From contig SLCE01000089.1 in assembly GCA_007125985.1 (NCBI GenBank), positions 1 through 40,317 on the forward strand: a stretch of DNA of 40,317 nt, given 5' to 3'. This document shows positions 35,641 to 40,317 of this stretch, piece after piece (the stretch's first letter is position 1; each line of letters opens with the position of its first letter). Under the pieces are notes generated by a model. That model saw only the letters and a list, made by a program, of their open reading frames with translations. It did not search any database and was not told where the DNA came from. The position numbers were made by a program, and so were the translations under genes. The DNA comes from Ectothiorhodospiraceae bacterium (GTDB taxonomy: Bacteria; Pseudomonadota; Gammaproteobacteria; Nitrococcales; Aquisalimonadaceae).

Positions 35641-37218
35641 TCAACCTTGCGCGAAATACCGGTCCAGATAGGCCTGGAAGTCCTCTGTCTCAATGTCCCT
35701 GGCCTCGATCTCCGCCTGCTCCGCAAGCGATTGGGTCGCCGCGTCGCGGAACTGCTGCTCCAGCTCCGGTGACAGGGGCTGGGCGCGGAAGTAGCCTTCA
35801 TGCTGTCGGGAGACGCGCATGGCGAACTCGATGAAATGTTCCTGCCGGTCCCGCATCTCCCGCAGTACCCGGGCAGAAGGGGTGTGCTCGGCGTCATCCA
35901 CAGCACGGCGGTAGTCCGCCAGTGCATCCCGGTACGGCTGGCCAGGCCGCAACTGGTCCAACAGTTCCATCGGCCCTTCCAGCGTCTGAAAGATCTCCGC
36001 CGCCCACTGCCGCAGCGGAACGCGCTCCCCCTGGCCTCGGTAGAGCTGGAGATCGGGGTCACGTCCATGGCGTGCCACCAGTCCCTGGTTGGCGTTGATG
36101 CCGGCCTGTTCCCTCGGCGAGATCACCGGGCTGTCCTGCAGCAGGCAGAACAGCAGCAGGCCTTCCAGGAACACCAGGTGCTGCTCGGCGATGCCAGTGG
36201 GCTCGAAGGGGTTCAGATCCAGGGCGCGGATTTCCACATATTCCACGCCGGCCCGGCGCAGCGCCAGCGTGGGCTTCTCCCCGGAGCGGGCAATGGCCTT
36301 GGGCCGGATGAAGCTGTAGTACTCGTTCTCGATCTGCAGGATATTGGTGTTCAGCTGGCGCCATTGACCGTCCACCACGGTGCCGATGCGGGCGTACTCC
36401 TCGTCCGGTGTGGAAATGGCGCGGGTCAGCGTGTCCACATAGCTGTCCAGATCGTTGTAGGAGATCTTCAGCCCCGCCTGCGCCTTGTTCTTGTAGCCGA
36501 TATCGCTCATCCGCAGGGAGGTGCCGTAGGGTTCGTAAAGGGTATGACCATCGAAGCTCTGGAAGCCCAGTTCCTGGCCCTGGGTGAATGAACTGCAGAC
36601 CGCGGGGGAGGCGCCGAACAGGTAGGGCACCAGCCAGCCGTAACGCTGGAAGTTCCGGATCAGCCGGAAGTAGGCGTCTGAGCGATACACGGGCTCCGGG
36701 CGGCTGTCGCCTTCCGCGGCCTGCAGCGCCTGCAGGAACTCGCGGCTGAACGAGTAGTTGAAATGGATCCCGGAAATGGCCTGCATGGCGCGACCGTAGC
36801 GCCAGTCCAGCCCGCGCCGGTAGACGTGCTTCATGAAGCCCACGTTGGAGCTGCCGTATTCGGCGATGGGGATGCTGTCGTTGCCGCCCACGATGCAGGG
36901 CATACTCGTGGCCCACAGCAGCTCGTCGTCCAGCTGGTGGTAGACGAAGCGGTGAATGTCCTCCAGAAAACCCAGCGTCTCCGCCGTGTGCGCATGGGGA
37001 GGCGTGATGAACTCCAGCAGGGCTTCTGAGTAGTCGGTGGTGATCCACGGGTGGGTGAGGGCTGAGCCAAGCGCCTTGGGGTGGGGTGTGCGGGCAATCG
37101 TGCCCTCCGGGGTCACCCGCAGGCTTTCTTTTTCCAGGCCCTTCAGGCTGTTGAGCAGCAGCCCCCGGGTGCCGTTCTGCAAAAGTCCGCTCAGCCGTTG
37201 CTCGGTGCTTCGATACAT
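35641..37218 (-). CDS. gshA: Glutamate--cysteine ligase
   Basis: GshA joins glutamate and cysteine in the first step of glutathione synthesis. The 525-residue length is that of the enterobacterial class (about 518). LLLNSLKGLEKESLRVTPEG near residue 20 and TTDYSEALLEFITPPH near 60 belong to the active site, as do EIRALDLNPFEPTG near 320 and the segment DLNP. The ATG at 37218 gives MYRSTEQRLSGLLQNGTRGL. It is 79 bases from the sensor kinase gene in the same direction, with no clear promoter or terminator between, so read-through is possible. Confidence 0.96.
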   Translation of the reverse strand: MYRSTEQRLSGLLQNGTRGLLLNSLKGLEKESLRVTPEGTIARTPHPKALGSALTHPWITTDYSEALLEFITPPHAHTAETLGFLEDIHRFVYHQLDDELLWATSMPCIVGGNDSIPIAEYGSSNVGFMKHVYRRGLDWRYGRAMQAISGIHFNYSFSREFLQALQAAEGDSRPEPVYRSDAYFRLIRNFQRYGWLVPYLFGASPAVCSSFTQGQELGFQSFDGHTLYEPYGTSLRMSDIGYKNKAQAGLKISYNDLDSYVDTLTRAISTPDEEYARIGTVVDGQWRQLNTNILQIENEYYSFIRPKAIARSGEKPTLALRRAGVEYVEIRALDLNPFEPTGIAEQHLVFLEGLLLFCLLQDSPVISPREQAGINANQGLVARHGRDPDLQLYRGQGERVPLRQWAAEIFQTLEGPMELLDQLRPGQPYRDALADYRRAVDDAEHTPSARVLREMRDRQEHFIEFAMRVSRQHEGYFRAQPLSPELEQQFRDAATQSLAEQAEIEARDIETEDFQAYLDRYFAQG

Positions 37219-37297
37219 GCGCCGCTCGATCTGTGGTGATTACTGAAAGAGCGGATTGTGCCCCTTGCGGCGGTAAAATGAAATGCCGCTGCGGGAT

Positions 37298-38656
37298 TCA
37301 CGTAGCTGCCAGTACGCCCGGCCGGAGTGGCAGGCGCACCCGGAGACTGGCGCCGCCCAGCGGGCTCTGGCTGATGGTCAGGTCACCCTCGTAGTCGTTG
37401 ACCAGATCCCGCACCACGGCCAGGCCCAGGCCCTGACCAGGGCGGCTCTGATCACCGCGGATGCCGCGTTCCAGCACCTGTGCCCGCAGGGTGTCGGGAA
37501 TGCCCGGGCCATCATCCTCCACCACCAGCGTGAGCTGCCGGCCCTGATGCTGGTCCACGGTCAGCCGTATGCGGGATGCGGCCCATTTGGCGGCGTTGTC
37601 CAGCAGGTTGCCCAGCAGTTCCATGAGATCGGCTTCCGGGCCGGGAAAGCGCGCCTCCGGTTGACAATGGACATCGATGCGTACGTCCCGGTCCGCCGGC
37701 ATCGGGATGGCCCGCTGCAACCGCGTGATGACCGGTGCGGCCGGGCTGCTCTCTCCCAGTCCGGCGCGGCCGGCCCGGGAGGCGCGCCCCAGGTGATACT
37801 GCAGGCTGCTGTCCATGCGTTCGATTTGCTCGATGACCTCGGCGGGGGCCGGTGTGTCGGGGTCCGATTCCACCCGGCTGCGCAGCACGGCCAGCGGTGT
37901 TTTCAGGCTGTGTGCCAGGTCGGCCAGGGCCTGCCGGTACCGGGTGCCGCGTTCCCGTTCCGCTTTCAGCAGGCGGTTCAGGCTCTGGGTCAATGGCAGC
38001 AGTTCCCTCGGGTAATTCTCATCCAGACTCTGGCGCTTGCCGCGACGGATGGCGTCCAGTTCCCCGGCCACACGGCGCAGAGGGGCCAGGCCCCAGCGCT
38101 GTATCATGACCTGCGCCAGCAGCAGCGCCGCCGCCGCACCCAATAGCCAGCCCCAGAGCCCCTGCCGGTACGCCTGCAGTTCGGCCTGGCGAAGCGACAG
38201 GGCCTCGGCCAGTTCCACGGTGAACCGGCCCGCGCCCACTGCCGGATCCTCCCATTCCAAGCCGTAGCTTAGTACCAGAACCGCCTCGCCGGCGGCCTGA
38301 CCTTCCGCCCAGCGCTGTTCCCCGGGGGGGAGAGTGCCGGTGCCGGACCAGGCCTGTCCCATCAATGACTGGGAGCGCCACACCGCGCGACCGGCGTCAT
38401 CCAGAATCCGCGCATAAAGGCCTGACTCCAGAGTCCGGAACCGCGCGTCCGCCAGCGGGGGTTCCACCACCAAACCCTCCTCTTCCAGGGAGGCGGCGGC
38501 GAGCAGGGTGTAAAGCAGGGCCTCCATGCGCTGGGTGCGAGACGCGTCCAGACTGTTGCGGAAGGCCTGATCCAGCGCCAGGCCGGTGGCACCGAGAAAA
38601 CCCGCCAGCACGAGGCTGGAAACCAGCAGCAGGCGGCGGATAAGCGAGGGGTTCAC
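37298..38656 (-). CDS. PhoQ-like sensor histidine kinase
   Basis: A 452-residue membrane kinase. One membrane helix is at about 8-28; a periplasmic sensor of about 135 residues follows, with SLEEEGLVVEPPLADARF and GLYARILDDAGRAVWRS. A second helix is near 167-187, then HAMP. The dimerisation box is DLAHSLKTPLAVL, with the phosphorylated His near residue 250; this is close to the PhoQ form. The ATP-binding motifs are GNLLDNAAKWA (N), EDDGPGIP (G1) and GQGLGLAVV (G2). The start is GTG, which overlaps the regulator stop in GTGA. PhoQ senses low Mg2+ and cationic peptides; whether this one does is inference. Confidence 0.88.
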   Translation of the reverse strand: MNPSLIRRLLLVSSLVLAGFLGATGLALDQAFRNSLDASRTQRMEALLYTLLAAASLEEEGLVVEPPLADARFRTLESGLYARILDDAGRAVWRSQSLMGQAWSGTGTLPPGEQRWAEGQAAGEAVLVLSYGLEWEDPAVGAGRFTVELAEALSLRQAELQAYRQGLWGWLLGAAAALLLAQVMIQRWGLAPLRRVAGELDAIRRGKRQSLDENYPRELLPLTQSLNRLLKAERERGTRYRQALADLAHSLKTPLAVLRSRVESDPDTPAPAEVIEQIERMDSSLQYHLGRASRAGRAGLGESSPAAPVITRLQRAIPMPADRDVRIDVHCQPEARFPGPEADLMELLGNLLDNAAKWAASRIRLTVDQHQGRQLTLVVEDDGPGIPDTLRAQVLERGIRGDQSRPGQGLGLAVVRDLVNDYEGDLTISQSPLGGASLRVRLPLRPGVLAAT

Positions 38657-39342
38657 CGTCCATCCCCGCCCAGTCCGGGACGTAGGGCGTAACCCAGTCC
38701 GCGTTGGGTCTGGATGGGCTGCAGTGTTCCGTCCGGATCCAGCTTCTGCCGAAGGCGGCGCACGAACACCTCGATCACATTGCTGTCACGATCGGCTTCG
38801 TCCGGATACAGGTGCTCAGTGAGTTCGGTTTTGGACACTGCCTGGCCGGGGCGGTGCATCAGGTACTCCAGCACGCGGTATTCGAACGCGGTCAGCGCCA
38901 CCGGCTGCCCCTCCATCGAGGCTTGCTTGGCACGGGTGTCCAGGGCCAGTGGGCCGGCGATGAGTACGGGATGGGCGAAGCCGGCGGCCCGCCGCAGCAG
39001 GGCGTTCATGCGGGCAAGCAGCTCTTCCATGCGGAAGGGTTTGGTGAGGTAGTCGTCAGCACCTGCTTCCAGCCCTTCCACCCGGTCCTGCCATTGGTGG
39101 CGGGCGGTGAGAACCAGGACGGGTAGGCGACTGCCATCGGCCCGCAGACGGCGGATGAGTTCCAGGCCGGAGAGTTCGGGCAGCCCCAGGTCAACGATGG
39201 CCAGGTCGATGGGGTAGTCCTGCGCCAGGTGTAGGCCGGTGCGGCCATCGTTGGCCAGGTCCACCACATACCCCTCGCTCTGCAGGCGTTCCGCCACCTG
39301 GGCAGCGAGTTGTGTTTCGTCTTCAATCACCAGTACGCGCAT
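38653..39342 (-). CDS. OmpR/PhoP-family response regulator
   Basis: A 229-residue regulator with a receiver domain (Glu7-Asp8 acidic pair, phospho-acceptor Asp51 in AIVDLGLPELSG, Lys near 101 in DDYLTKPF). A C-terminal winged helix carries DSNVIEVFVRRLRQKLDPDG as recognition helix. The ATG at 39342 is chosen because the family begins MRVLVIEDE; a start nine codons upstream would overlap the PepSY gene. It lies one base after the PepSY stop and overlaps the kinase start by four bases, so the three genes are tightly coupled. It is the likely reader of the repeat at 40212-40229. Confidence 0.93.
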   Translation of the reverse strand: MRVLVIEDETQLAAQVAERLQSEGYVVDLANDGRTGLHLAQDYPIDLAIVDLGLPELSGLELIRRLRADGSRLPVLVLTARHQWQDRVEGLEAGADDYLTKPFRMEELLARMNALLRRAAGFAHPVLIAGPLALDTRAKQASMEGQPVALTAFEYRVLEYLMHRPGQAVSKTELTEHLYPDEADRDSNVIEVFVRRLRQKLDPDGTLQPIQTQRGLGYALRPGLGGDGR

Positions 39343-39343
39343 G

Positions 39344-39598
39344 TCATCGCATCCGGCCGGTTTCGGCATCCACGCGGTAAACCCGCACCTGGCCCTCGCG
39401 AACCAGCACCCGGATCCGATGCACCTGGCGATCGCCCTGGCGCACCGTTTCTGCAGCCAGCACCCGGCCCCCGCTGCGCTCGCGCACCATTTCCACGGCT
39501 TCGTTCAGGCTCACCGCGGGCTGACCGGCTCCGGCCAGAGGCGCGATCAGCGATAGCGCGAGCAGCAGACTCATGAACAGGTGACGCAGGCGTCCCAT
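39344..39598 (-). CDS. Small exported PepSY-domain protein
   Basis: A protein of 84 residues. A signal peptide (MGRLRHLFMSLLLALSLIAP, cleavage probably after AGA near residue 24) leads to a single PepSY domain with SLNEAVEMVRERSGGRVL and the closing VYRVDAETGRMR. PepSY proteins of this size sit in the periplasm and are often encoded beside PhoP/PhoQ-like pairs, where they may tune the sensor. GGAGAGG stands directly before the ATG at 39598, which decides against an upstream start. The gene is one base from the response regulator. Confidence 0.88.
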   Translation of the reverse strand: MGRLRHLFMSLLLALSLIAPLAGAGQPAVSLNEAVEMVRERSGGRVLAAETVRQGDRQVHRIRVLVREGQVRVYRVDAETGRMR

Positions 39599-39648
39599 GG
39601 CCTCTCCACGGGGCAGGCAGAAGCCCAATGGGCGCCTCTGCCCCACAG

Positions 39649-40167
39649 TCAGTAGCGAACGGGGGTGACATCCACGCGCACCCGGATGCGGTCGCCGGGG
39701 TGGTGATCCATCTCGGTCCAGTAGCTGTCACCCTGGTAGCGGTATTGTACCCGATAGCCGACAGTGCGCTCTTCCTCGTACCAGCTGTCCACCACCCGGC
39801 AATGGGTTTCGGTGCTGGTCCAGCGCCGCGCCGGGCGCTCGGTGAGGCGGTCGCCGATAGCGGCACCGGCAATGGTGCCCGCCACGGTGGCTGCGGTCTT
39901 GCCGCTACCACCGCCGAAGCGGTTGCCCACCACGCCGCCGGCGATGCCGCCCACCACCATGCCTGCGGTGTTGCGGCCACGGTCCGTGTGGCGGATCTGT
40001 TCGTCCCAGCATTCCTGGCGCGGGTGGGAGACACGCACCGTCTCCTTGATGGGGATCACCTGCTGGACCCGGGCCGTGGCGTAGCTGCTATGTGCCGACG
40101 CGTTGCCCAGCGGTAGCATGGCTGCGAGCAGGCCGGCGCCGGCGATCAGGGAAAGGCTCTTCTTCAT
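39649..40167 (-). CDS. Glycine-zipper outer-membrane/periplasmic protein (17-kDa surface antigen type)
   Basis: A 172-residue exported protein. The signal peptide is MKKSLSLIAGAGLLAAMLPL with a cut after ASA. A glycine-zipper segment follows near residues 67-105 (AGMVVGGIAGGVVGNRFGGG, then GTIAGAAIGDRL), and the C-terminal part is rich in Tyr and charged residues (VGYRVQYRYQGDSYW). Two cysteines flank the zipper and may form a disulfide. There is no lipobox. The ATG at 40167 has GGAGGTG upstream; a longer frame to the window edge is not protein-like. It is the first gene of the PepSY-regulator-kinase operon and may be a target of that system. Confidence 0.85.
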   Translation of the reverse strand: MKKSLSLIAGAGLLAAMLPLGNASAHSSYATARVQQVIPIKETVRVSHPRQECWDEQIRHTDRGRNTAGMVVGGIAGGVVGNRFGGGSGKTAATVAGTIAGAAIGDRLTERPARRWTSTETHCRVVDSWYEEERTVGYRVQYRYQGDSYWTEMDHHPGDRIRVRVDVTPVRY

Positions 40168-40191
40168 GACACACCTCCGCTCAGGTTGATG

Positions 40192-40229
40192 ACTGTAGTC
40201 TGCAGCGGGTTGGCTGAACGGAGGCTGAA
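40192..40229 (-). promoter_or_regulatory. Promoter and direct-repeat operator of the glycine-zipper/two-component operon
   Basis: On the minus strand the direct repeat TTCAGCC-TCCG-TTCAGCC (40229-40212) has a period of exactly 11 bases, the spacing used by OmpR-family regulators. A TACAGT -10 box follows at 40197-40192. The -35 position (CGTTCA, 40220-40215, 17 bases away) is poor and overlaps the second repeat, as expected for a promoter that needs an activator. The leader would be about 18 bases. The remaining upstream bases to the window edge show nothing I can name. Confidence 0.6.
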
Positions 40230-40317
40230 TGGTGCGGTGGTCGTTTGGCGGAGGGCTTCGATCCGGCCCGGGCCATTCAGAAGCCGGCCCGGAGGATGAT
40301 GCAACGGTTTCGGACAC

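Follow-up and report, generated by a model that had tools for sequence, protein, structure and literature searches.

The direct repeat upstream of a two-component operon near the end of the window (the whole 40,317-nucleotide stretch of DNA that we analysed) is very probably a PhoP box for the operon's own PhoP-lineage regulator, which would be phosphorylated by the PhoQ-like kinase of the same operon and would activate its own expression. As a Pseudomonas-type PhoP box the site is a known kind of element, a type already described from P. aeruginosa, and it is real and widely conserved; less well known is how widely such a box accompanies PhoP-lineage operons that contain PepSY and glycine-zipper genes. 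An anonymous repeat can thereby be read as a named operator, and an unnamed two-component operon is placed in the PhoP/PhoQ lineage.

The repeat, its promoter and the operon

The initial annotation described an 11-bp-period repeat, TTCAGCC-N4-TTCAGCC, and this repeat is real: the letters of the window read TTCAGCC-TCCG-TTCAGCC, exact, on the minus strand at 40229-40212. The conserved unit reads as ATTCAG-N5-GTTCAG, a refinement of the heptamer repeat (Table 1). The half-site had also been held to be unlike the known PhoP boxes; it does differ from the enteric GTTTA, but it matches the PhoP box published for P. aeruginosa, GTTCAGNNNNNRTTCAG (PMC3156716, PMC7916210), and the regulator belongs to the PhoP clade. 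The window box, ATTCAGCCTCCGTTCAG, departs from the published form, (C)GTTCAGN5RTTCAG, by one mismatch, its first base being A instead of G, and A or G occupies this position in 49 of the 52 conserved leaders; as far as the letters go, the repeat fits the P. aeruginosa box. According to the available portions of the two reports, that box is backed at retS by gel-shift and mutation evidence (PMC3156716) and genome-wide by a ChIP-seq motif, G/ATTCAG (PMC7916210).

Taken alone in the window, the box is not above chance, and its weight derives from conservation in other genomes. Exact 7-mer direct repeats of period 11 number five in the window against about 4.2 expected, a scan of the window for the repeat with three mismatches allowed found eight against a mean of 4.3, and within the 150-bp leader any such repeat arose in 33 of 5000 dinucleotide shuffles and the strict box RTTCAGN5RTTCAG in 0 of 5000. 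Exact TTCAGCCN4TTCAGCC occurs nowhere else in the 3.24-Mb assembly, and three further places match it at one mismatch. As a genome-wide search pattern the full heptamer repeat was uninformative (four hits with at most one mismatch, one for the reversed control) and was abandoned.

On the minus strand the leader runs from the box through 11 nt to CAGACT, then to a GGAGG Shine-Dalgarno sequence and the ATG of gene 1 at 40167. The overlap with a weak -35 box noted in the initial annotation is a fair description, as the 17-bp-spaced slot takes in the final base of the first half-site together with the N5 spacer that follows it. A consensus scan of 37000-40317 found no sigma-70 consensus promoter, which fits an activator-dependent promoter but is no proof of one. 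When the 52 leaders are aligned on their boxes, the hexamer 11 nt after the second half-site carries A at position 2 in 47/52 and T at position 6 in 46/52, a signal that played no part in picking the box sites, and this hexamer reads as a -10 element in fixed phase to the box. An earlier candidate for the -10 was TACAGT, which lies 15 nt beyond the second TTCAGC; it was dropped when the column profile of the 52 leaders pointed to CAGACT. The N5 spacer and most of the flanks are little conserved across the same leaders, which argues against mere recent common descent. In E. coli, the boxes of phoP (GTTTA-N6-GTTTA, exact) and slyB (one mismatch) are each followed by a -10-like hexamer, with the spacing seen in the window.

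The initial annotation placed the repeat at the head of a two-component operon; it does head the regulator operon, but this has four genes, of which the first two encode a glycine-zipper and a PepSY protein. The PepSY stop lies one base before the regulator ATG, the kinase start overlaps the regulator stop, and a terminator scan found none between genes 1 and 3; because of these tight or overlapping junctions and the lack of a terminator, the four genes are likely to share one transcript. Between the glycine-zipper gene and the PepSY gene (39649-39599, minus strand) a G+C hairpin that lacks a U-tract can form (-26.1 kcal/mol, z only -1.1); it might separate gene 1 expression from that of the downstream genes. 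E. coli SlyB and gene 1 match the same Pfam family, which links the two only weakly, given how simple glycine zippers are. The window is an entire contig (G000:C9) that ends at 40317, with the promoter 87 bp from the contig end.

Table 1. Features of the operon and its leader, in window coordinates.
Feature	Position	Strand	Remarks
PhoP-type box ATTCAG-CCTCC-GTTCAG	40214..40230	(-)	two 6-bp half-sites, 11-bp period; conserved upstream of orthologues
-35 slot GCCTCC	40220..40225	(-)	17-bp spacer to -10; no resemblance to TTGACA
-10 element CAGACT	40197..40202	(-)	11 nt after second half-site; implied by conservation
Gene 1, secreted glycine-zipper protein, 172 aa	39649..40167	(-)	PF05433; NCBIfam PRK11280 above its cut-off
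Gene 2, small secreted PepSY protein, 84 aa	39344..39598	(-)	PF03413
Gene 3, PhoP-clade OmpR-family response regulator	38653..39342	(-)	likely ATG 39342; open frame extends to 39369
Gene 4, PhoQ-like sensor histidine kinase, 452 aa	37298..38656	(-)	start overlaps regulator stop
Gene 4 periplasmic sensor domain, residues 34-160	38177..38557	(-)	PhoQ-type PAS-like fold (predicted)

Conservation of the box upstream of related regulators

The comparison drew on 110 loci: 30 were best matches from the window's genome and its relatives, and a scan of public genomes supplied 80 named ones. L024, which shares a contig with L130, and L006, L137, L154 and L155, with less than 300 bp of upstream sequence, were left out of the box counts. 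A box was scored when RTTCAGN5RTTCAG occurred with at most one mismatch on the regulator's strand, no more than 1500 bp upstream of it, and a locus was called orthologue-like when its regulator was at least 49.5% identical, a cut set after seeing the identity table. By this measure 52/60 orthologue-like loci carry the box as compared to 1/45 of the others, for which the Fisher p value of 4e-20 is only a guide because the cut was chosen post hoc and related loci are not independent. The exact box is found in 31/60 and 0/45, respectively. Control spacings of N2-N4 and N6-N9 gave 0-3/60, and the reversed pattern 1/60. The initial annotation had proposed an OmpR-family operator placed for activation from a weak -35, and autoregulation, as the regulator is encoded in the same operon; both proposals gain support from the sequence, and autoregulation, which hinged on the repeat being conserved upstream of orthologous operons, survived this comparison.

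That the repeat is a functionless chance event has therefore become a negligible possibility: it is true that by itself the repeat is not rarer in the window than expected, but conservation in 52/60 leaders, around spacer bases that are not conserved and in a conserved phase to the -10, refutes this as far as sequence allows. It is also quite improbable that a PhoP-type box mediates repression here, or that it chiefly serves a gene beyond the contig end. Repression has a precedent, as P. aeruginosa PhoP is reported, in the available text, to repress retS through a box between the -10 and the start codon (PMC3156716), and the window stops 87 bp upstream of the box, leaving the neighbouring gene out of view. 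Yet the conserved orientation of the box and its fixed distance to a -10 on the operon strand match the E. coli phoP and slyB promoters, which PhoP activates, and boxes on the opposite strand occur in 7/60 leaders as against 52/60 on the operon strand. An activator site for the operon itself thus appears the better account.

The box is absent from eight of the 60 orthologue-like loci (L012, L026, L099, L110, L122, L123, L124 and L127). In the L012 genome a box precedes a detached PepSY gene some 9.5 kb upstream of the regulator. In one relative (L252, G004:C2:225400-236000) about 9 kb with a number of long open frames, many of them on the other strand, lie between the box with its PepSY gene and the regulator, apparently a split operon. 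In a sample of Enterobacterales, 34 of 99 genomes matched and yielded 30 loci, 21 of which have the box in the leader, as compared to 5/30 leaders with one of four control spacings; the nine leaders lacking the box include some with little upstream DNA. Two related PepSY operons of this sample, L228 and L233, have a repeat of the TTAAG/TTAAT type about 480 bp before the regulator, and it keeps the same phase to a -10, as if the half-site had shifted.

The regulator and kinase in the PhoP/PhoQ lineage

In a quick tree with SH-aLRT support and no bootstrap (omitting L033, L095, L137, L153 (short reading) and L024), the window regulator, E. coli PhoP and three Pseudomonas PhoPs, including that of P. 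aeruginosa, fall in one clade of 54 rows with an SH-aLRT of 99. The box accompanies 49 of the 53 rows of this clade that are not from E. coli, the exceptions being L006 (241 bp of upstream sequence), L012, L099 and L110, and it is found in none of the tree rows just outside the clade, which are largely alphaproteobacterial. The match between clade and box gives the same picture as the counts, free of any identity cut.

The tree also bears on the proposal that another OmpR-family regulator, for example of the CreB, PmrA or QseB type, binds the box, in which case the operon would be a target with no autoregulation. OmpR-type half-sites are short, CreB sites (TTCAC-N6-TTCAC) look similar, and the assembly holds 28 matches to the regulator, a number that includes receiver-only hits. 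CreB, PmrA and QseB, considered as binding families on the similarity of half-sites, were nevertheless set aside by the regulator tree: CreB, BasR and QseB of E. coli lie outside the PhoP clade, whereas the box tracks the PhoP-clade gene itself across the tree. We consider a foreign regulator unlikely and retain the operon's own PhoP-lineage regulator as the candidate ligand of the box.

The operon belongs to the PhoP/PhoQ-lineage modules. The top NCBIfam model for the regulator is RppA at 221.5 bits, followed by PhoP at 213.1 bits, below the PhoP cut-off of 336. For the window kinase the best model is PhoQ, at 215.7 bits as compared to a cut-off of 497, which was passed in only one of 14 control genomes and looks, for this reason, to have been set for PhoQ of the enteric type. 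In the window's genome it is the sole strong PhoQ-like kinase (214.6 bits, 78.7 for the next).

Among the solved relatives of the window kinase, whose fold was based on an alignment of 40 of the kinases listed, PhoQ kinase and catalytic domains rank at the top. The predicted sensor domain, based on an alignment of 33 of those 40, places PhoQ sensor domains at ranks 1-3 and 5-7 by Z (1yax, Z 10.8, rmsd 2.6, 102 aligned; 3bq8, Z 10.5, rmsd 3.0, 112 aligned), whereas unrelated PAS-like sensors reach Z 9.5 and lower; Foldseek E-values of the PhoQ rows are 0.006-0.04. The model thus gives gene 4 a PhoQ-type periplasmic fold.

A Mg2+ or envelope-stress signal may act through this kinase, but the former is not implied by its sequence. 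In enteric PhoQ divalent cations are bound by an acidic cluster of the sensor, EDDDDAE in E. coli. This patch is absent from the window sensor, which has at most three acids per seven residues as compared to six in E. coli, and its absence means that Mg2+ sensing should not be presumed. PhoQ of P. aeruginosa PA7 likewise has at most three acids in any seven residues, and also lacks a Pfam PhoQ_Sensor match. DbfS-type kinases are often annotated as phoQ and yet, according to the available part of the report, DbfS shows no response to PhoQ ligands (PMC7768729), so that the window kinase, too, need not sense Mg2+.

Three known systems resemble the operon. P. aeruginosa oprH-phoP-phoQ shares with it the GTTCAG-N5-RTTCAG consensus, the 11-nt phase to a TAnnCT-like -10 and an envelope protein as the first gene of the operon. 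In PA7 the leader holds four tandem GTTCAG half-sites before a gene that we take by its sequence to be oprH, whereas the window has two half-sites followed by glycine-zipper and PepSY genes. The gene order given in the accessible part of PMC2650801 agrees with this naming. The enterobacterial phoPQ and slyB promoters have the 11-bp period and the distance to the -10 that are seen in the window, with GTTTA in place of GTTCAG as half-site. According to the same partial source, phoPQ and the lipoprotein gene slyB are the two PhoP targets common to ten enterics and the slyB product lowers PhoP activity (PMC2650801). These two targets parallel those of the window type, a phoPQ-like operon and glycine-zipper genes; in E. 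coli, however, slyB is at a distance from phoPQ, and phoP has no PepSY gene before it, whereas the window operon has a glycine-zipper and a PepSY gene. The third system, V. cholerae DbfQRS, shares with the window, by gene order, a small secreted PepSY gene followed by the OmpR-type regulator and the sensor kinase. The available text reports that DbfQ, a PepSY protein whose gene directly precedes dbfR and dbfS, binds to the DbfS sensor domain and shifts DbfS to phosphatase activity, and that the data suggest positive autoregulation of the operon (PMC12714742). The glycine-zipper gene is part of the window operon and stands outside the DbfQRS operon as described in that text, and the published descriptions of DbfQRS, in their available portions, give no DNA site for DbfR (PMC12714742, PMC7768729).

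Based on these comparisons we propose that the PhoQ-like kinase phosphorylates the regulator, which would then form a head-to-tail dimer on ATTCAG-N5-GTTCAG, beside and across the useless -35 slot. The bound regulator would replace the missing -35 contact and recruit RNA polymerase to the -10 CAGACT, so that the glycine-zipper protein, the PepSY protein, the regulator and the kinase would be raised together. By analogy with DbfQ, the PepSY protein probably restrains the kinase in the periplasm, and as such a restraint it would mean that the operon also makes its own brake.

Other boxes and candidate targets

A loose pattern, TTCAGN6TTCAG with one mismatch, gave 172 hits in the window's own genome against 37 for the reversed control and was discarded. 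Of its eight exact hits, the operon site and one on contig C176 have a -10 in phase, with A at position 2 and T at position 6; the remaining six lack it, and each of them falls under an open frame of 100 codons or more. We searched 40 genomes with the phased pattern, the box plus a -10 in fixed phase, and obtained 29 sites in 19/40 genomes, with none for the reversed control. A phased site is present in 18 of 20 genomes that have a regulator orthologue (at least 57% identity) as compared to 1 of 20 without (p 6e-8), and the 19 genomes that lack both a close orthologue and a phased site further argue against binding by another regulator. This count replaced an earlier one of unphased GTTCAGN5GTTCAG (17/20 with an orthologue and 4/20 without) because some of those hits, among them the sole hit of the window's genome, fall within open frames. 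The phased pattern offers a way to list targets of PhoP-type regulators across many genomes.

Fourteen of the 29 sites are associated with the regulator operon or with its PepSY gene, eight lie before a second glycine-zipper gene (five assigned by tblastn, three by blastp) and seven elsewhere. The window's genome has exactly two, the operon's own and one before a second glycine-zipper gene on contig C176. The latter (G000:C176:17968-18001, minus strand, loci L040/L203) precedes a 155-aa His-rich glycine-zipper protein, and the same arrangement occurs in seven other genomes of the family. In PA7, which served as the positive control, the pattern gave five hits, two of them in the oprH leader and the others at an arnB-like gene, at a PagL-like gene and at one further place; the names arnB-like, PagL-like and oprH are presumed from the translations. 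A P. fluorescens genome gave no site with this pattern. Both oprH and arnB are listed as PhoP-bound in P. aeruginosa in the accessible part of PMC7916210.

Tentatively, and with a little less than even confidence, we suggest a broader reading, in which GTTCAG-N5-GTTCAG with a -10 at 11 nt would be the ancestral operator of a broad gammaproteobacterial PhoP/DbfR family, the enteric GTTTA a late variant, and the core targets always the operon itself and envelope proteins (PepSY and glycine-zipper or SlyB-like proteins) with a feedback on the kinase. If true, DbfR and many unnamed "PepSY-TCS" regulators would acquire a predictable binding site and regulon, and the box already suggests a DNA site to seek in PepSY-containing systems such as DbfQRS. 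Among open-licence papers we found none with the box sequence written out, and none on a DbfR binding site together with PhoP.

Further boxes were seen at single loci. Two Colwellia genomes carry an extra box directly after the kinase gene (L129, at about 5230, and L131, at about 5224), that of L129 heading a 438-aa protein. In two genomes of the same genus, L205 (G004:C7) and L206 (G007:C401), phased boxes precede twin-arginine-type secreted proteins, which presumably resemble high-potential iron-sulfur proteins.
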